Below are positions 10,736 to 38,390 of a DNA stretch of 41,495 nt, in pieces. Each line of letters opens with the position of its first letter. Position 1 is the stretch's first letter. The notes under the pieces were generated by a model, which saw nothing but the letters and a program-made list of their open reading frames with translations, ran no database searches and was not told where the DNA came from. Source of the stretch: Actinomycetota bacterium (GTDB lineage Bacteria > Actinomycetota > Aquicultoria > Aquicultorales > Aquicultoraceae); contig JASEGT010000013.1 in assembly GCA_030018005.1 (NCBI GenBank), positions 1 to 41,495 on the forward strand, read 5' to 3'. A program made the position numbers and the translations under genes.

Positions 10736-11152
10736 TTACCTCCTTCCTTCATTGATGACATTCTTAAGACCCGTAAAACGGCTTGCGATCAGCTGTGCCA
10801 TAGTATTGAATCGGATATTGTTTTCCGCCAAATTCGTCATCTCTTCATCGACATCGACGTTGTTACCATCCTCGCGCATTGAAGTCGCGTTAAGCACGTC
10901 GACTCGCGCACCGACCCCCGCAAGCGACCTTCCTCCAGGTAAGTGTCGCGCATCTGTCTGCTGCATTCGAGAATCATACTTCTTATCCAGCGCACGCTTC
11001 AACTCCCCCTCAAAGAGAACGTCTCGCTTTTTATAGCCAGGTGTATTAATATTCGCGATGTTCCCCGAGATTACCTGCTGTCTAAGTGAAGTAGCATCCA
11101 TACCTTTTTGCAGAGCAACGAACGTATCGCCCGAAAATAATTTCCCAATCAA
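10736..11152 (-). CDS. flgB: Flagellar proximal rod protein FlgB
   Basis: FlgB is the most proximal rod subunit. The 138-residue product contains the rod signature SGNIANINTPGYKKRDVLFE (about 28-47) and the C-terminal motif VDVDEEMTNLAENNIRFNTMAQLI. The probable start is TTG with GGGGGTGA about 6 bases upstream; the TTGA overlap with the stop of the HTH gene indicates translational coupling between that regulator and the basal-body genes. The family assignment is secure. Confidence 0.95.
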   Translation of the reverse strand: MIGKLFSGDTFVALQKGMDATSLRQQVISGNIANINTPGYKKRDVLFEGELKRALDKKYDSRMQQTDARHLPGGRSLAGVGARVDVLNATSMREDGNNVDVDEEMTNLAENNIRFNTMAQLIASRFTGLKNVINEGRR

Positions 11153-11376
11153 TTCTGGTCACCCCCAGCCGCTTCCAAGCTCTCAAAGACCTCTTCAAAA
11201 TTGCTCCCCGACGCTATATACTTGTCAATAAGCGCCTTGGGGAAACGCCATTCCTTGCCTATTTTAAGGCCCGGCAATTTTTTCTCGCGCGCGAGCCTAC
11301 AAACCGTAATCTGGCTCATCTGCAAATATTCGGCAAGCTGTTTTGCGGTCATGATATCGGTGATAGTCTTCTTCAT
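11149..11376 (-). CDS. BldC/excisionase-family HTH DNA-binding protein at the head of the flagellar operon
   Basis: A 75-residue protein that is nearly all one winged helix-turn-helix of the excisionase/BldC type (TIGR01764, HTH_17). Residues 9-46 read MTAKQLAEYLQMSQITVCRL followed by AREKKLPGLKIGKEWRF, the hallmark of this MerR-related fold. A short acidic tail (NFEEVFESLEAAGG) follows. The start ATG has GGAGG 6 bases upstream. It is the first gene of the basal-body operon and overlaps flgB by 4 bases, so it is made in step with the rod genes. The upstream region has two 17-bp direct repeats. I infer a flagellar operon regulator, possibly autoregulatory. Such proteins bind DNA, but the target here is unproven. 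Confidence 0.85.
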   Translation of the reverse strand: MKKTITDIMTAKQLAEYLQMSQITVCRLAREKKLPGLKIGKEWRFPKALIDKYIASGSNFEEVFESLEAAGGDQN

Positions 11377-11452
11377 CGCAATCCTCCGGCTTTACCATTG
11401 GTCTCGCTGGCTAAGCACCAAATCCTTTATCCAGCAAGCAATGGCTTCATAT

Positions 11453-11482
11453 ATATTAAGATAAAGTCCGGTTGTTTATCAA
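11453..11482 (-). promoter_or_regulatory. Candidate vegetative-type promoter for the HTH-flgB operon
   Basis: On the minus strand TTGATA (11477-11482) and TAATAT (11453-11458) are separated by 18 bases, giving five and four matches to TTGACA and TATAAT. Transcription would begin about 70 bases before the HTH start codon. The spacer contains almost all of one of the two direct repeats, the arrangement MerR-type regulators use. It is a prediction from sequence only. Confidence 0.45.
11461..11477. promoter_or_regulatory. Direct repeat 1, candidate operator
   Basis: ATAAAGTCCGGTTGTTT, matching the copy at 11521 in 15 of 17 positions. It lies between the proposed -35 and -10 elements of the HTH-flgB operon. 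It is a candidate binding site for the HTH protein encoded just downstream. Confidence 0.55.
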
Positions 11483-11520
11483 CTAATTAGCCAGATTATT
11501 ATTTTTTAGATGCTTTTTTT

Positions 11521-11537
11521 ATAAAATGCGGTTGTTT
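11521..11537. promoter_or_regulatory. Direct repeat 2, candidate operator
   Basis: ATAAAATGCGGTTGTTT, starting exactly 60 bp from the first copy and in the same orientation. The two differ at only two positions, in an intergenic region that is otherwise AT-rich and not repetitive. A TTGTG-N7-CACAA inverted repeat (11545-11561) and a TATCG-TTTT-CGATA inverted repeat (11569-11582) lie further upstream of the operon. Confidence 0.55.
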
Positions 11538-11629
11538 GCGCTTTTTGTGTGCTAATCACAAGCCATTCTATCGTTTTCGATAAGATATAACATCATTACG
11601 ATGTTTCCTATCTCGCAGCTCTAGAACAA

Positions 11630-11824
11630 TTACATGCGAGCGGCGAAGAAAACAATTCTCGGCTCAAGATCTGAGGAATCTTCGGGGAGGTTGATGTTGA
11701 TTTGATTTGTGCGGAATACTTCTGTCATTCGGTATTCCTTGGCCCCTGTTACCAGCCCGGCCCTGTCAACCCTTTGTTCGCCTCGCGCCTCAGAATCTAT
11801 ATTTAAAGCTATTGCTTCCGACAT
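11630..11824 (-). CDS. 64-residue orphan protein with a sigma-28-type promoter
   Basis: A small acidic protein (MSEAIALNIDSEARG... ending RIVFFAARM) with no signal peptide, membrane segment or family I can recognise. Evidence that it is a gene: ATG with AAGGAG 5 bases upstream, and a sigma-28-like promoter (TAAA-N16-GCCGAAAT) that would place the transcript start about 30 bases before the ATG. It sits alone between the glycosyltransferase genes and the basal-body operon. Expression with late flagellar genes would suggest a filament, motor or chemotaxis accessory, but nothing in the protein says which. Confidence 0.65.
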   Translation of the reverse strand: MSEAIALNIDSEARGEQRVDRAGLVTGAKEYRMTEVFRTNQININLPEDSSDLEPRIVFFAARM

Positions 11825-11916: not shown

Positions 11917-14070
11917 TTATATGTTCTGTCTAAGCTCGGCAATTAGGAGGGAGTTCGGATATTTGCCTGCGCCGGCGTCGAAGACCTCCGCGGCGAGGCC
12001 TATCTCACCTTGTTTTATGAGGGTGCGCCCTAACAGTACGAAGAGCCCGAGTTCTTCGACTCCTCTATACAGCGCTTCAAAGAAAAAAGTCTTGGCCTCT
12101 TCAAAGAACTCATTGTCAAACGCAGTGCCACCAAGGATATAAAAAGACTCTCCGTCTGCACTTCCGCTTTCGTACGCGTGAATCAGTTCTTCAACAGCGA
12201 TTTCGTTATAACCGGCATCATAATATATCTTCCCAAGAAAGAGACTGCTCTCGCCTGGCGATAGGCCTAGCTCGTCTAATAGGGCTACGGCTTTTTCAAA
12301 GACGTCCAGATTCTTCAGCTCTAAGAGTTTCCCCATAAGGTCGGCGACAATTTGCAGGGCGCTATCTTTCTCGGCGCCATCCAGCGAAATCGAAGAAACC
12401 TGTCCTTCCGACAGAGAAGCTATCGATCGATAAATCGCATGAACCAAAGCAAAATCTTCGATGCTTTTGATGAGGTCGATGGCCTCAATCGCTCGTTTGC
12501 TATCTCCGATGAGCATGAAGCAGACTGACTTGTTTGCGCATGCCGCAGAGTAATGTTGGCTCGATATCGCGACCTTATCGAATTCAGCGATCGCCTCCTT
12601 GAAATACCCCAGATTGAACAAGCATTCCCCCTTAAGGAGCGCCGTTTGGGAGGGGGCAGATCCCCTTTTCACTAGTTGTTCTACGTATATGAGGCTTATA
12701 TCATAATAGCCGGTTTGACTAAATAAGAGCGCTAAGGAAGAAAGCACGGCCTCGGATGTCAGGTCAACCTGCGACTCTAGAATTTGCCTGACATTTTCCG
12801 GCCCGTCTTTGCGCATTAGAAGCAGGCCTAAATCATATGCGGCCCGACCATACCCGGCATTCAGCGCCAGAGCTTTTTCATAATAGCATATAGACTTCGC
12901 CTCATCACCGAGCGCCATATATGTTCGGGCGGCCATGTATGCTGCCATATAGCTACCGACACCTGAATGACTGGAATAGAGGCTTCTATGCGAGCCCATC
13001 GTCAAGCAAGTCTCAAAACACGTTGTGGCCGATTCATAGTCGCGCTCCTCGAAATGGACTAGTCCTTCCAGGTAGAATAGGTCCACGTATTCCGGATAAG
13101 CGTCTTGAGCGTCCCTGAGCAGCTTGAGTGCCTCCTGGTACCGGCCCAAGCCCTTAAGACACAGAGACATGTTGCTCGCGAGCCTCGCAGCATTCTGAAT
13201 ATCCGAGCCCGAGAGATTCGCGAAAGCACGCTTGTAGCTCTCGAGCGCTCTCTTAAAATCACCCTGCGCTAAGTAATCGACCCCGACTTTGATTCGAAGA
13301 CTGAAATCACCCGAGCCGTCGTCCCGCTCGCTCATAATAATCCTAAGGTCACGCTGCGCTTTGTTGGCTTTCGGCTTATTCAGGTACCCGAAATTGTTGA
13401 TCCTGACCTCTGCGACACCAACACTTGGGTTATTTTGTCGAGCGCTCACCTTCAACTGCTCCTGGTCTGCGTCAGCGAAACGATACTCCGATTTGTTCCG
13501 CCAGAGCCTGAAAGAAAGACTTGAAACGGCACCGTCTTCCTCCCGCGCCCCGACGTAATATATTTCACCAAGATAGAATCCACTATGATCGATGTCTTGA
13601 AGCAATTCAGCCAGCTTCGATACGTCCTCCGCTATCAACTCATCATCGGCATCTAGAAAGAGCACCCAGTCGCAGGTAGCGTTCTCCAGACAGATGTTGC
13701 CGGCTTCAGACCAACTATTGTTCCACGGGTGGAAAACTACCTTGGCTCCGTGACTTCGCGCAATTTCTACGGTCTGGTCGGATGAGCCTGTATCCACAAC
13801 AATAATCTCGTTCGCTATGTCTTTGATGCTCTCCAAACTCCGTGCAATATTGGTCTCTTCATTTCTAACTATCATGGCTACTGATAGTGACGCAAGCTCA
13901 ATATGCTTATCCGGAAATCGCCAGGGCTCCTGCATGTAGCGTGTAGCAAAGACCTCTATCGGGTCGCTTTCTCCCAAATCATCTGCCGGGAAACCCGGGG
14001 CTGTGCTCGTCAAACCAAACACTAAACCACAGTCGCTCTTTCTCTCGTCGTCTAGCTTTTTACCAGGCAC
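11917..14070 (-). CDS. Family 2 glycosyltransferase with TPR repeats
   Basis: A 717-residue protein. An N-terminal extension precedes a GT-A (GT2) domain at about 60-260 with SVAMIVRNEETNIARSLES, the nucleotide-binding IIVVDTGSSDQT, and the metal-site motif FLDADDEL. From about residue 265 to the end are many TPR-like helix pairs (for example AYPEYVDLFYLEGLVHFEE and AYMAARTYMALGDEAKSICY). This architecture is common for sugar transferases that act on proteins or surface glycans. It starts with GTG inside the end of the upstream transferase gene (19-base overlap), so the two form a unit. Location between the flagellin and basal-body operons suggests flagellin glycosylation; the acceptor and sugar cannot be read from sequence. 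Confidence 0.88.
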   Translation of the reverse strand: MPGKKLDDERKSDCGLVFGLTSTAPGFPADDLGESDPIEVFATRYMQEPWRFPDKHIELASLSVAMIVRNEETNIARSLESIKDIANEIIVVDTGSSDQTVEIARSHGAKVVFHPWNNSWSEAGNICLENATCDWVLFLDADDELIAEDVSKLAELLQDIDHSGFYLGEIYYVGAREEDGAVSSLSFRLWRNKSEYRFADADQEQLKVSARQNNPSVGVAEVRINNFGYLNKPKANKAQRDLRIIMSERDDGSGDFSLRIKVGVDYLAQGDFKRALESYKRAFANLSGSDIQNAARLASNMSLCLKGLGRYQEALKLLRDAQDAYPEYVDLFYLEGLVHFEERDYESATTCFETCLTMGSHRSLYSSHSGVGSYMAAYMAARTYMALGDEAKSICYYEKALALNAGYGRAAYDLGLLLMRKDGPENVRQILESQVDLTSEAVLSSLALLFSQTGYYDISLIYVEQLVKRGSAPSQTALLKGECLFNLGYFKEAIAEFDKVAISSQHYSAACANKSVCFMLIGDSKRAIEAIDLIKSIEDFALVHAIYRSIASLSEGQVSSISLDGAEKDSALQIVADLMGKLLELKNLDVFEKAVALLDELGLSPGESSLFLGKIYYDAGYNEIAVEELIHAYESGSADGESFYILGGTAFDNEFFEEAKTFFFEALYRGVEELGLFVLLGRTLIKQGEIGLAAEVFDAGAGKYPNSLLIAELRQNI

Positions 14071-15875
14071 AAGCCCACCCCCCCTCTGTCGTCGACCCTA
14101 ACCTTTTTAGCCACCATCATATAATGAGAGTATTGAATCTCGGCGGTCAGGCTTGCCGCCGCTACATTCAACGGTTTGATACTCTTCATAAACGCACTCG
14201 CCTCATCGGAGTCGACGCACCCATTGGTAATTCCCTCAACGGCTTCGATCTCAAATCCTGCCAATTTGAACATATAAACGATTTCTCGAAGGGTAAACGA
14301 TTTGGGATGGGTCCCGTCTAAGGTGCCGTTACCGCTATAGCGCCAACAACCCTTTAGGAAATCCTTTATGACCGGCAAGTACAGTGTGTTGGGGATGCAA
14401 GCAATGATTCTCCCGTTCGCGGTCAAGAGGTTACCCTGCTTTACCAGCGCTCGCCAGGGCTCCTGCAAGTTCTCAAGCACCCCCCTGTAGATAATGCAAT
14501 CAAAGAAATTACTCCTAAACGGAAGCTCCACTTCCTCGGTATTGCCTATGATCACCTTGTCGAGGCGATCGATGGCCTTGTTCGCGACGACCTCGTTCTC
14601 TTCAACGCCGAAAATCTCCTTCACGCCTTTTGACCTCAAAATATCGCCAAGCAGTCCTTCGCCGCAGCCAATTTCCAGAACCCTCTTTGCATCGGCCGGC
14701 ACAGACCTCGCAAGAATCTCGTCGTCTCTTCGGGAATTAAACCTGTTCTTTTCGTAGAGATACGCCTGATCGTTGTTTACGGATGAGATGGCATCTTGAA
14801 TCAATACCCCGTTATCCTGGTGCAACGCATGCTCTAGTATAAACTCTAGTCTGTTGACGTAAGTGTGCTCTTTTAAACATCGCTCTCGTGCGAGAAGAGC
14901 CATTTCTTCTCTCTCATCAGAATGCTCTACGTAATGCGCGATTTTATCGGCTAACTCAACGGGCGATGTGAAGATGTCGACCTCTTTGCCGACCTCAAAG
15001 TATCTTTCAAGATTGGGTGATGCACTCTCGATCAGCTGGAAGCCGCCACTGGCCGCAATCTCGAACGTCTTGTGGTCCGGCGAAGAGCGCACGATATTGT
15101 ATTCTTGCCCGTTGACTCGCAACGTCAAATCGCGGTTACCCTGCAGATTTAGATTTATCTTTGCATTCGAATAGTATCTTGCCCTATCCGCGGCGTATAT
15201 CGCACGGTTAGAAATCGACTTATTAAGCATATGTGCGGATTTTAACGCGTCCCATCGCTCACCTATGATTCTCGTTCGAACATCGCTGTCGACAAGAAAA
15301 CCCGCTATCGCATCGATGATCTCGGCAGGGCCGCCCTCGCCCGACCCGATAGCGCACACGTCATACTCAAAATGGGAAACCGGCTGTTTTTTAAAGACGC
15401 CCGGGAATGCCGCTTGTGGCAAGTAAGACACATTCTTGCAACCGCAATCGAGGTAAATTTCGACGAGGTTCGACTCGAATGTGAATACATAGTCGTAAAC
15501 ATGTGCGTGTTTAAGTGTCTCAGCTACCCCGCTATCGTCCAGAACCCACAGCACAACTACGGCTCCCGTTTTTTGTATCGACCGGACAGTCATCGGCGGC
15601 AGAAAACAGCCTTGGGTTGTCAGAACCAAATCGGGCTCAAACTCAGAGACGAGCTGCAGAAGCGGAGCGACTGAATACTTATATAGGTGATTAGATGAAT
15701 AATCTATATCATATGCTTCTTTCGCATGATTAAACACGTCGTCAAAGAATTTGATGTGGGCGGCAAAATCAAAAAACCTGTAATCGACGTCCATATCGCG
15801 AAGGGTCAGGTCGATATACCTATCAAACGGCTTATCAGCCGAATCCAGGCCGGAGTTAACGAATACAACCTTCAC
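14052..15875 (-). CDS. CgeB-like glycosyltransferase fused to a SAM methyltransferase
   Basis: This 607-residue protein (from a GTG at 15875) has two parts. Residues 1-350 resemble CgeB/DUF3880-type glycosyltransferases, with the GT-B C-terminal core YYSNAKINLNLQGNRD and KTFEIAASGGFQLIES. Residues 375-560 are a class I methyltransferase with the SAM-binding motif VLEIGCGEGLLGDIL, the acidic strand FGVEENE, and the Methyltransf_11 stretch FFDCIIYRGVLENL. A TTG at 15893 would extend the N-terminus by 6 residues but lacks a good ribosome site; GGAGAAGGGG lies upstream of 15875. The pairing suggests transfer and O-methylation of a sugar on one surface polymer, plausibly flagellin. The substrate is unknown. 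Confidence 0.86.
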   Translation of the reverse strand: MKVVFVNSGLDSADKPFDRYIDLTLRDMDVDYRFFDFAAHIKFFDDVFNHAKEAYDIDYSSNHLYKYSVAPLLQLVSEFEPDLVLTTQGCFLPPMTVRSIQKTGAVVVLWVLDDSGVAETLKHAHVYDYVFTFESNLVEIYLDCGCKNVSYLPQAAFPGVFKKQPVSHFEYDVCAIGSGEGGPAEIIDAIAGFLVDSDVRTRIIGERWDALKSAHMLNKSISNRAIYAADRARYYSNAKINLNLQGNRDLTLRVNGQEYNIVRSSPDHKTFEIAASGGFQLIESASPNLERYFEVGKEVDIFTSPVELADKIAHYVEHSDEREEMALLARERCLKEHTYVNRLEFILEHALHQDNGVLIQDAISSVNNDQAYLYEKNRFNSRRDDEILARSVPADAKRVLEIGCGEGLLGDILRSKGVKEIFGVEENEVVANKAIDRLDKVIIGNTEEVELPFRSNFFDCIIYRGVLENLQEPWRALVKQGNLLTANGRIIACIPNTLYLPVIKDFLKGCWRYSGNGTLDGTHPKSFTLREIVYMFKLAGFEIEAVEGITNGCVDSDEASAFMKSIKPLNVAAASLTAEIQYSHYMMVAKKVRVDDRGGVGLCLVKS

Positions 15876-15992
15876 CTGCAACCCCTTCTCCAACCACTTC
15901 TAGACAAAGACTTTAATTACTGCTGCAATCGTAAGAATACCAAACTATACTATATCCATGTTATCAAAAATCTATAACAGAAGCGACGCGTT

Positions 15993-16063: not shown

Positions 16064-18307
16064 TTATCTAAGCGTTGTCTCCAAGTACTTGGAGCTTCCG
16101 TCATTTAGTTCAACACGCACCCGCCACGTGCCCACGGAGAGATTCTTGGTTGAGAGGTTGAAGATATACCGTTCGCCGTCGCTGTCATAGCGGAATAGGT
16201 TCCCGCTATTTGCCGAACCCGAGGGAATGCCTTCAAGCTCGACACCGGGCACGCCGTTTTCGATCTTTGCCGCATAAATCTTGGCTACGGCATCTTTTAT
16301 GAAATTGCCGCTTGCGTCTTTAATCTGGAACTTGACCGGTATTGTACTGCCAAATTTTGCGCTACTTGTGTTCGGCGGCAAAAACCGGAAGTCTTCGTAA
16401 CGGACGAAATACGTTACCGTCTTGACCGAGTGATTGCCGGCATTGTCTGTGGCTTCAACCGTAAAGGTATGCGCCCCTACTATTGAGGTGTCGATAGGCG
16501 CTCCGCTAGGTACGGTTCCGGTTGCTAAGACCAAACCTGAGATGCTGTCCATTGCCGTCCACTCGGCGAGAACGTTCTCGCCTAAAGAGTACTCCCCGCC
16601 GTCGGCCGGTATGCTTATGTCTATAATGGGTGCGGTTTTGTCCACCCCTATTTGCTGCTCTTTAACTGCGCCTACATTTCCGGCTTTATCGGTCGAGCGA
16701 TAGTGCACGGTTGTCCTACCGTCAACAGAGATTGTAAATGGCGCTGTGCAGTTTATCCAGTTTACACCATCGAGGTTATATTCCGTTTTCGCCACACCGG
16801 AGCCGCCCTCGTTGTCTACCGAGGTAAGGCCTACCTTAACATCAGATAAATACCAACCGTTATCACCCGGAGTACCAAAAAGCTCGATTATAGTTGCCGG
16901 CGCAGTCTTATCGGAGGAATTCGAGCCCCAACCATTCGGCTTCGTCCAGGGAAGATAATCCGCGCAACGGCCGACGTAATAGGGTTTATCCACAAACCCG
17001 TCACCGTTGCCATCGGGTCCCGTCCAGTTGCTCCAGTAATTTCCACCCGACGGCTTCCCTATATTAAACCCGTTGCTCTGAGGCCAACCATCTACGCCGA
17101 CAGACTGGGTGCCGTTAGCGACAAAGTTGTTATTATATATCTTATTATAGGCGCTGTAGAGCGTAGAGATTCCGCACCCGTTTCTAGAGATAGTGTTTCT
17201 GCTAAGCGTCCCATAAACCATTGTTGAAAGAAAAAGGCCATGCTGGCGGTTACTCTCGCTTATGCAATCAGTAAGGGTGCTGTAAGTGCTCGCACCGAAG
17301 TAAAACCCGCCGTCGCGATTTAGACTCGCCGAGCTATCTTCAACGATACAACTATCTGATTGGCTTATGAAAACGCCCCATGCGCCATTTCGCACGGCAT
17401 TGTTGTTCGAGACAGTATTTGAAGAGGATTGATATTGTAGTGTCAACCCTGTATATGCATTTACTTCCTGAACATTGCCCGACAGAGCATTCTTGTATGA
17501 GCAATTGACCCTTATCCCATAGGCATTGGAAGAAGCGACGTTGTCGACAATAGCATTATTGTTTGAGTGGTCAAGAAGGATTCCGATATAAAACCCCTTA
17601 ACCGTAGCGTTTTTAACCGTAACACCAGTCCTTCCGTGAAGGTAGATGCCGCTGCCCGACCCGCTTCCGGTTACCGTGTGGCCGTTTCCATCTAAAGTTA
17701 TGCCATCGCTATCTATCTGAATCGTCTCAAATACATCGCTGGTTAGGGTGGCGGTCTTTGTTACCGGGTCCCAGGTTCCTATGCCGTCTCTGCTCCAACC
17801 GCTATCGCTAAGAAATATCGTAGAGGGCCTGGGCTGGATAAAGACCGAGTGCGCCTTGGAGAGGTCCTGGATATAGAAATAATTGCCGTTTTCGTCGGTG
17901 GTAAATGCAACATGATTGCGGTAATCGTCTTCGTATTTGTGATAGGTGGTGAGCGGAACAAAACCGCCCAGGGTAACCGAGGTAGAGCCAGCGCCTGAGG
18001 CAGCCTCAAGCTGCATAGCAACCATCTCGGGTACAGATTCGAGTACAAGCTTTACCGGCTCCGAGCTATCGAGAGATATATTTAGATATTCACTATCGGT
18101 AAGACAAAATCTGATGCCGGTAGATTCTAGTCTTCCGGGTATTTGGGGCTCTAGGGGAATCTCGGGCAGACCAAGGGGGTCATCCGCGAGGTATGGATTG
18201 ACCTCCAGAGGAATTAAAGGCAAGGGTGTTTCCGCCAAAGCTATGCTTGTGCTTAGCAGGCTCAAAACCAAAGTTACTAGAAAAAGGCTTGAGAGTTTCC
18301 TAATCAT
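16064..18307 (-). CDS. Secreted parallel beta-helix (NosD-like) protein with OmpL47-type and PxKF domains
   Basis: A 747-residue exported protein. Residues 1-25 form a clear signal peptide with cleavage after ALA. From about 175 to 430 is a right-handed beta-helix of NosD/PbH1 type, with repeated N-ladder turns such as LLDHSNNNAIVDNVASSNAYG and IYNNNFVANG. Residues 480-640 hold Ig-like/OmpL47-type units beginning DKTAPATIIELFG and DKTAPIIDI. Residues 645-747 are a PxKF domain (motif TIPVKFQIKDASG). There is no LPXTG or C-terminal membrane anchor, so it is probably released or held non-covalently. A perfect sigma-28 promoter lies 250 bp upstream, tying it to motility. Possible roles are adhesion or glycan binding; both are inference. 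Confidence 0.88.
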   Translation of the reverse strand: MIRKLSSLFLVTLVLSLLSTSIALAETPLPLIPLEVNPYLADDPLGLPEIPLEPQIPGRLESTGIRFCLTDSEYLNISLDSSEPVKLVLESVPEMVAMQLEAASGAGSTSVTLGGFVPLTTYHKYEDDYRNHVAFTTDENGNYFYIQDLSKAHSVFIQPRPSTIFLSDSGWSRDGIGTWDPVTKTATLTSDVFETIQIDSDGITLDGNGHTVTGSGSGSGIYLHGRTGVTVKNATVKGFYIGILLDHSNNNAIVDNVASSNAYGIRVNCSYKNALSGNVQEVNAYTGLTLQYQSSSNTVSNNNAVRNGAWGVFISQSDSCIVEDSSASLNRDGGFYFGASTYSTLTDCISESNRQHGLFLSTMVYGTLSRNTISRNGCGISTLYSAYNKIYNNNFVANGTQSVGVDGWPQSNGFNIGKPSGGNYWSNWTGPDGNGDGFVDKPYYVGRCADYLPWTKPNGWGSNSSDKTAPATIIELFGTPGDNGWYLSDVKVGLTSVDNEGGSGVAKTEYNLDGVNWINCTAPFTISVDGRTTVHYRSTDKAGNVGAVKEQQIGVDKTAPIIDISIPADGGEYSLGENVLAEWTAMDSISGLVLATGTVPSGAPIDTSIVGAHTFTVEATDNAGNHSVKTVTYFVRYEDFRFLPPNTSSAKFGSTIPVKFQIKDASGNFIKDAVAKIYAAKIENGVPGVELEGIPSGSANSGNLFRYDSDGERYIFNLSTKNLSVGTWRVRVELNDGSSKYLETTLR

Positions 18308-18564: not shown

Positions 18565-18591
18565 ATATCGGCGTCATCTCAGTAATCTTTA
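18565..18591 (-). promoter_or_regulatory. Perfect sigma-28 promoter upstream of the PxKF exoprotein
   Basis: Minus strand TAAA (18588-18591), 15-base spacer, GCCGATAT (18565-18572): an exact match to the Bacillus SigD/FliA consensus, the best in the window. It lies 34 bp from the fliS terminator and points towards the exoprotein gene. No other minus-strand gene lies between them. Confidence 0.75.
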
Positions 18592-36894: not shown

Positions 36895-38301
36895 TTAAGC
36901 TATCTTGAACTTTTCGACTAATCCACTTAACTCATCCGCCATGTTCGAGACCTCGATGGCCGATGCCGCTATCTCTTCGACTGAAGCTGTCTGCTCCTGC
37001 GTGGATGCAGAGATCTCCGAAGCCGATGCAGCGGAGTGGGCGGTCGATTGTGAAATCGTTTCTACGACTGTTTCGACTTGACCCGAAGATGCCGCAACCT
37101 CTTGCGTTATGGCTGAATTCTCTTCGGTGATCGTCGCTATCTGATCCATTGCAGAAGCGATTTTCTCGGACGATGTCGATATTTGTTCGGCTGCTGTAGA
37201 AACCCCGGCGATTTCCGTAACGACTCTATTGATTGACACCATCATCTCTTCAATGGCTTCACCGGCGTTGTGGGCAAGTTCGGTCCCGGATGCGACCTCT
37301 TGTGTACCCTGTTCCATGGCGGCTACCGCCTCAAGTGTTTCGTCTTGGATTCCCTTTATAAGTTTTGCTATCTCCCCGGTGGCTCTCGCTGAACGCTCTG
37401 CCAGCTTTCGCACCTCATCGGCGACTACGGCAAAACCTTTGCCGTGTTCACCGGCGCGCGCGGCCTCGATTGCCGCATTTAGTGCCAAAAGGTTGGTCTG
37501 CTCGGCGATATCGTCTATTACTTCGATGATTTCGCCTATCTGCTTGGACTTCTCGCCCAGCATCTGTATCTTGTTGGCTGAGGAGAGGACGGTTCCTCTA
37601 ATCTTCTCCATGCCGGAGATTGTCTTACTGACCGCCTCTTGGCCCCGGGTCGCGACGACTGAGCCTTCCGAAGCCGCGTTCGATACGACTTTAGCGTTTT
37701 CTGCAACCTTATTGATTGACATTGCGAGCTGATTCATATTTTGCGTCGTATCAGAGACGCTTCGCGATTGCTCAACGGCACCTTTTGAGACCTGGTCGAT
37801 AGCGGACGCGATTTGATCGATTAAGCCGTGAGCCTCAGAAGTAGACTTGCTCTGCTGCTCCACATCGCTAGCGATCCCATAGACGCCTTGTGCGACCTGG
37901 GTGGAAGTTTGGCTGATGGCATCTGAACCTGTTGCCAGGCGCTTGGCTGAGGCCTGCAAGCTGTGAGCGCTTCTTGTGATTTTCTCAAACAGCTCTCGTT
38001 GCTTCCTCACGAGAAGACCATCAAAGGTCGAATAGTTGAGCGCGACAACCATAAAGACGAATATCGCGCCGAACAGAAAGACGAGACTTACTAGAAGGTT
38101 TGGGTCAACCAAGTGAATGTTCTTGAATAAGATTGCGCCGTAAAACACGTAACTCGCAAGAAAGGCCATCATGAAGACGAATAGTGCCATCCATTTCGAG
38201 CCATATTCCGTTTTCTTGACGATAGTGATCAGCCGCCGGCAATTGATGACTGCGGCGAGCATTATTAAAGCACCGATTGACACTATTATTACTGGAATCA
38301 C
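36895..38301 (-). CDS. Methyl-accepting chemotaxis protein with three N-terminal membrane segments
   Basis: A 468-residue MCP. The N-terminal part has three hydrophobic segments (about 1-20, 38-59 and 70-90) and no extracellular sensory domain: a cytoplasmic/membrane-type receptor rather than a ligand-binding one. The rest is the cytoplasmic signalling coiled coil with the hairpin tip [38 protein letters not shown], an essential site for CheA/CheW. Start is GTG with AAGGAGG about 7 bases upstream and a TAAA-N15-GACGATAT sigma-28 promoter at 38364-38390. The signalling tip is nearly identical in DNA to the neighbouring MCP gene. Confidence 0.94.
37334..37428. repeat. Shared MCP signalling-domain segment, copy A
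   Basis: A 95-base stretch identical, base for base, to 38838-38932 in the neighbouring MCP gene, within a longer region (about 37320-37600 against 38824-39104) that differs at few positions. The N-terminal and C-terminal parts of the two MCPs are unrelated. Identity at silent positions shows recent exchange, not only selection for the protein sequence. Confidence 0.8.
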
Positions 38302-38363: not shown

Positions 38364-38390
38364 ATATCGTCTCTATTCGTTTCCTCTTTA
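38364..38390 (-). promoter_or_regulatory. Sigma-28 promoter of the second MCP
   Basis: TAAA (38387-38390), 15-base spacer, GACGATAT (38364-38371) on the minus strand; perfect -35, seven of eight -10. It starts 11 bp from the end of the upstream MCP and about 63 bp from the GTG at 38301. A strong match to the SigD/FliA pattern. Confidence 0.7.

Follow-up and report, generated by a model that had tools for sequence, protein, structure and literature searches.

A small excisionase-type helix-turn-helix gene and a helically phased A-tract array at the start of a flagellar operon in Candidatus Aquicultoria

A winged helix-turn-helix gene opens the flagellar operon

The window that we analysed, meaning the whole stretch of 41,495 nucleotides, comes from a 2.19 Mb genome (assembly G000) of the class Ca. 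Aquicultoria and carries a flagellar operon that comprises some 20 genes and is headed by a gene for a 75-residue winged helix-turn-helix (wHTH) protein, below simply called the HTH protein. The features at the head of this operon, all on the reverse strand, are listed here:

10736-11152 (-): flgB, overlapping the stop codon of the HTH gene
11149-11376 (-): HTH gene, 75-aa wHTH protein, first in the flagellar operon (PF12728, TIGR01764, BldC by Foldseek)
11436-11447 (-): conserved leader start, AAGC-N3/4-GCTT (AAGCCATTGCTT), at approximately +1 to +12, from the alignment and counted from a putative +1
11453-11482 (-): sigma-A-type promoter TTGATA-N18-TAATAT, with a spacer CG (11469-11470) invariant in 11/11 family members
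11461-11477 (-): proximal 17-bp repeat ATAAAGTCCGGTTGTTT, in the promoter; its AAA (11475-11477) keeps approximately to the phase of the array
11483-11488 (-): conserved block before the -35 element, family consensus TAATnAG preceding TTGnTA (gap-free alignment of 11 genomes)
11502-11507 (-): in-phase A-tract, by phase fit
11521-11537 (-): distal 17-bp repeat ATAAAATGCGGTTGTTT, genus-restricted and decaying; its AAA (11535-11537) fits the array phase
11542-11546 (-): in-phase A-tract, by phase fit
11569-11577 (-): array unit AAAACGATA, the most strongly enriched motif in the DNA that precedes the HTH gene in relatives
11604-11613 (-): array unit AGATAGGAAA, with the CGATA unit 40 bp away

The first-pass annotation had placed the HTH gene at the start of a flgB-flgE operon and directly against flgB, and both points hold: the TGA of the HTH gene overlaps the TTG start of flgB as TTGA, and the same strand continues with flgB, flgC, fliE, fliF, fliG, fliH, fliI, fliJ and further genes up to flgD and flgE. 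In G002, a genome of the same genus, the series from the HTH gene to flgE goes on with motA, motB, fliL, fliM and a fliN-like gene over around 16 kb of one strand (names past flgE were taken from translation starts alone). For the operon we infer a single transcript.

Among the 36 genomes of the class that were searched, 12 have flgB, and in every one of these an orthologue of the HTH gene lies directly upstream of it, while only a single flgB-negative genome (1/24; G004) has the orthologue. Such an association (12/12 versus 1/24) is very unlikely to have arisen by chance, with the qualification that the genomes concerned, mostly metagenome-assembled, belong to two families only and thus represent few independent events. 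Elsewhere in the phylum, none of 19 flgB loci had the HTH gene at a distance of up to about 1.5 kb. In comparisons across genera, identity to the window's version is 72-82% for the HTH protein and 59-68% for FlgB, so that the HTH protein is the more conserved of the two.

G004 has lost flgB and flgC, its fliF is broken and its fliE weak, and fliG and the HTH gene remain (L037, 9073-9765); at this decaying locus the HTH gene and an upstream small ORF are both intact. An HTH gene that outlives its flagellar neighbours might be taken to regulate or repress targets outside the flagellar operon and to be merely co-transcribed with it. We consider this decidedly unlikely, since the gene is strictly restricted to flagellar loci in 13 genomes, since the best motif of the array described below has no other consistent genomic location, and since recent decay accounts for the retention of the gene in G004.

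On the other side of the intergenic region, a 64-aa ORF (11630-11824, (-)) is found between a glycosyltransferase gene and the HTH gene. It has no Pfam family above cut-off and is 48-97% identical in most genomes of the family, though not detected by tblastn in G009. Two large genes for glycosyltransferase/TPR and glycosyltransferase/methyltransferase proteins (11917-15893, (-)) lie by the filament genes, are kept in part of the family and are candidates for flagellin glycosylation.

The HTH protein is BldC/Xis-like in predicted fold

The description of the first gene as encoding a BldC/excisionase-type HTH protein of 75 residues ahead of flgB agrees with Pfam, NCBIfam and fold comparison alike. 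The ORF matches Pfam HTH_17 (PF12728) with an E-value of 2.8e-12 and 47.2 bits (cut-off 27), and it belongs to the excisionase family by its match to NCBIfam TIGR01764 (excise) at 45.3 bits against a curated cut-off of 28.8, a profile matched in 11/11 orthologues. The gene is single-copy in its genome at the level of similarity searched. No integrase was identified among the window's flagellar and chemotaxis genes, so that mobile-element excision is not indicated as its role.

A profile search of PDB sequences returned no relative of the HTH protein, and its structural relatives come from fold comparison only. The AlphaFold2 model is of moderate confidence overall (pLDDT 74): the core (residues 11-50) is confident, at about 87-91, and the tail is poor, its last 15 or so residues being of low confidence. 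Foldseek placed BldC chains (6AMA/6AMK) at ranks 1-3, with an rmsd of 1.7-1.9, TM scores of 0.74-0.81 (by target length) and probabilities of 0.99-1.0, though at E-values above 0.01 for this query of 75 residues; RacA, phage proteins and RdfS are among the matches ranked after BldC. As modelled, the protein is thus a stand-alone wHTH with a BldC/Xis-like fold.

In BldC, Arg30 reads bases, Gly44 lies at the oligomer interface and Arg48 in the wing (PMC5859096). When aligned to a BldC sequence verified against 6AMA, the invariant R27, G40 and R44 of the HTH protein correspond to these three residues, while Lys26, His46 and Trp31 of BldC are replaced by I23, E42 and L28. Two of the four residues of the DNA-reading set of BldC (Arg30, Lys26, His46 and Arg48) are therefore retained, as R27 and R44. 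The protein falls outside BldC in the strict sense, and going by its model it plausibly works like BldC.

A conserved promoter and a decaying pair of repeats

A TTGATA-N18-TAATAT promoter with one repeat overlapping its spacer had been proposed upstream of the HTH gene and was indeed found at 11482..11453, conserved in all 11 genomes of the family. Their gap-free alignment reads TAATnAG-TTGnTA-N18-TAnnAT-A-N3-AAgCC-N-TTGCTT, with a spacer of 18 bp in each. We found no second site in the genome that matches this promoter with fewer than three mismatches, and no inverted repeat in the promoter spacer. The promoter of family f3 differs (TTGAAT-N17-TAAAGT).

The two 17-bp repeats noticed at first pass are equally real by their coordinates and by shuffling: ATAAAGTCCGGTTGTTT and ATAAAATGCGGTTGTTT are direct repeats, identical at 15/17 positions, that start 60 bp apart. 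A pair as good arose within the 253 bp upstream of the HTH gene in 3 of 1000 dinucleotide shuffles, a figure to be read knowing that the pair had been chosen out of the 41-kb window. In six further intergenic stretches that were compared, also from the window, the best 17-mer pairs reach 10-13/17. As a conserved operator, however, the twin was rejected. The comparison of relatives that keep the HTH-flgB order, suggested as a check by the first-pass annotation, went against it: in G002 both copies have drifted and are only about 11/17 identical to each other, copies within the genus are conserved no better than the surrounding DNA, and no second 17-bp copy was found in the other genera. The proximal copy persists because it lies within the conserved promoter.

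These results bear directly on the original proposal that the HTH protein binds both repeats and acts from the promoter spacer in the manner of MerR. MerR-type regulators work on a spacer of 19-20 bp with a dyad operator and have a coiled-coil dimerisation domain. The repeats are better than chance in their region, and the invariant CG of the spacer suggests that something may read it. On the other hand, the twin is lost within the genus, a spacer of 18 bp is in the ordinary sigma-70 range and requires no MerR-type untwisting, and family f3 has promoters without the spacer element of the f1 type. No C-terminal coiled-coil dimerisation or effector domain is present in the 75-aa protein. Taken together, we regard a MerR-like mode of action as quite unlikely.

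A phased array of A-tracts and GATA units upstream of the promoter

The DNA further upstream, from about -112 to -280 in family f1 or to -380 in f3, is rich in A-tracts and (A)AACGATA on its coding strand. In 10 non-redundant upstream sequences, AAACGATA was seen 8 times compared with 0.134 in shuffles, and with L004 added there are 9 occurrences on the coding strand and 0 on the opposite one. Its density of 4.39/kb is around 40-fold above the 0.10/kb per strand of control intergenic DNA from the same genomes. Neighbouring [ACG]GATA pairs are spaced at 10, 10, 10, 20, 21, 30, 30, 39 and 40 bp, as in 0/2000 shuffles. The case for GATA phasing as the primary signal is weakened by a test of all 4- and 5-mers, which identified A-tracts as the chief carrier of the periodicity. 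Tracts of at least three A outnumber T-tracts by 97 to 31 on the coding strand, and their period peaks at 10.0 bp with a mean cosine of 0.40 at 10.25 bp (0/1000 shuffles), values that come from a test devised after the motif had been seen, with region limits and period picked after inspection. No such phasing is present in control intergenic DNA from these genomes (mean cosine 0.07-0.10).

Five tracts of the window, at 11604, 11574, 11542, 11535 and 11502, share one phase, and the A-tract of the proximal 17-bp copy is 1.7 bp off it. Phasing is weak in L006, L008, L010 and L011 when each is taken alone, and the distance from array to promoter differs among genomes. Both 17-bp copies open with an A-tract in the register of the array, which fits their 60-bp spacing as six array turns, and by sequence they appear to be two units of this A-tract/AAACGATA array. 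Judged by conservation, it is the array rather than the twin that is the stronger feature, and it accompanies the HTH gene in two families.

Genome-wide CGATA-N5-CGATA tandems were rejected as further sites, given counts not far above those of a reversed-pattern control and A-rich examples that, where inspected outside the locus, were mostly intragenic. Likewise, AAACGATADAAA has 27 matches across 11 genomes, mostly intragenic, and the only 3 that precede the start of a flagellar operon are all upstream of the HTH gene. Among the flagellar operons examined, no other is preceded by close copies of the best motif of the array, which suggests that the regulation is local and of the operon by itself. 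A TTGTG-N7-CACAA inverted repeat (11545-11561, (-)) sits between array units and is kept only in the four genomes of the genus; it was rejected as a CRP/FNR site because its half-site spacing is off by one.

As the main rival to binding by the HTH protein, the phased A-tracts could be promoter DNA of an intrinsically curved or UP-like kind, or be bound by a general nucleoid protein or some other protein, with the HTH protein acting elsewhere or only modestly at this place. Curved upstream DNA activates promoters, the phasing of A-tracts alone is the strongest signal that we found, and plain GATA counted together with TGATA was only weakly phased. Curvature, however, needs neither the strand bias of the A-tracts nor any specific AAACGATA on one strand, and it leaves aside that two families have the array together with the HTH gene and that other AT-rich intergenic regions are unphased. 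We therefore think it rather unlikely that curvature or a nucleoid protein is the explanation.

Sigma factors of the flagellated genomes

A sigma-54 DNA-binding domain was found in none of the 11 family genomes, with positive controls; matches to sigma-54-activator domains were weak, partial and within large proteins, as they also were in control genomes devoid of sigma-54. FliA/WhiG-type sigma factors are present in the family. Assembly G000 has one above cut-off that is shared with non-flagellated relatives, and a second, found mainly in flagellated relatives, was not found in it, perhaps owing to an assembly gap.

The Bacillus fla/che operon has a sigma-D promoter, and (A)ACGATA could by analogy be read as -10 boxes of feedback promoters for sigma-28 (FliA), given the FliA-type sigma factors of flagellated relatives and the sigma-28-like sites that occur in the window. 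This seems very improbable to us: an exact TAAA at 14-17 bp accompanies just one CGATA site (in L006), all others lack a matching -35 element and were discarded as promoters, and a tandem arrangement at 10 bp does not resemble promoters.

Exact sigma-28-type sites of the form TAAA-N15-GMCGATA are found at 18566-18591 (-), upstream of a NosD/beta-helix gene (16064-18307), and at 38365-38390 (-), upstream of an MCP gene (36895-38301). The former gene, for a beta-helix surface protein, may belong to the late genes of the flagellar regulon.

A model for autoregulation of the flagellar operon

In its consensus AATT-N4-C, BldC recognises an AT-rich minor groove and, four bases further along, a C-G pair (PMC5859096), and its filaments place one turn of DNA between protomers (PMC11963761). 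The reverse strand of GATANAAAA is TTTT-NTAT-C and thus has the same layout; in view of this and of the one-turn filaments of BldC, the explanation that we rate highest is that the HTH protein binds the array head to tail. We therefore infer array binding and oligomerisation of the HTH protein. In the model that we favour, it would bind the AT-rich DNA upstream of the promoter (approximately 11490-11615) as a head-to-tail oligomer with about one protomer per helical turn, each reading an A-tract/(C/A)GATA unit phased at 10 bp, and the bound oligomer would modulate the sigma-A promoter TTGATA-N18-TAATAT. Because the HTH gene comes first in the operon, this would be autoregulation, a feedback loop on genes for rod, MS-ring, switch, export, hook and stator. 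A hierarchy may follow in which the HTH-controlled sigma-A promoter serves the early operon and FliA some late genes.

Overall, the flagellar operon is probably controlled by the small DNA-binding protein that it encodes, a mode of regulation not yet described for flagella. Whether a BldC/Xis-like protein does so specifically by way of the phased array appears to us evenly balanced between right and wrong. The broadest version, that a filament-forming wHTH of the BldC/Xis type is a dedicated, self-regulating top flagellar controller of Ca. Aquicultoria and of a type not recorded before, is a tentative proposal that we would sooner doubt than assert.

Comparison with known regulatory systems

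To our knowledge, regulators for the onset of flagellar synthesis have been identified in a few lineages only. FlhDC, FleQ/FlrA, SwrA, CtrA and MogR/GmaR hold a comparable position at the top of flagellar control, but these proteins are unrelated to the HTH protein, and control of the FleQ/FlrA type is not possible in a family where no sigma-54 gene was found. Closest in operon layout is Bacillus fla/che, in which genes for rod, motor, export and hook likewise form one long operon that follows a sigma-A-type promoter. The gene for its activator, SwrA, lies outside this operon, and we know of no HTH first gene in it. A 2023 survey of actinobacterial flagella was limited to FlhDC, SwrA, FliA, FlgM, CsrA and similar factors, and its text makes no mention of a helix-turn-helix or excisionase regulator (PMC10746217). 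A first-gene wHTH with a helically phased array is thus a concrete candidate regulator for an uncultured class in which sigma-54 was not detected.

Excisionase-family wHTHs (TIGR01764; phage Xis and RdfS) share the fold class of the HTH protein and form head-to-tail filaments on DNA (PMC11963761). Unlike with Xis and RdfS, no attachment site, integrase or mobile element was seen beside the HTH gene, which has a flagellar context in all flgB-positive relatives. The closest solved fold is that of Streptomyces BldC (PMC5859096; 6AMA, 6AMK), like the HTH protein a short stand-alone wHTH that goes with AT-rich direct repeats, oriented and spaced by one turn, on the upstream side of a promoter. The two proteins differ in sequence (24% identity), in the C-terminal tail, which is of variable length in the HTH protein, and in their repeats, which here are A-tract/(C/A)GATA. 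BldC controls sporulation genes, whereas the HTH protein heads a flagellar operon; if our model is true, regulation by BldC/Xis-like filaments would extend from sporulation and phage excision to motility.
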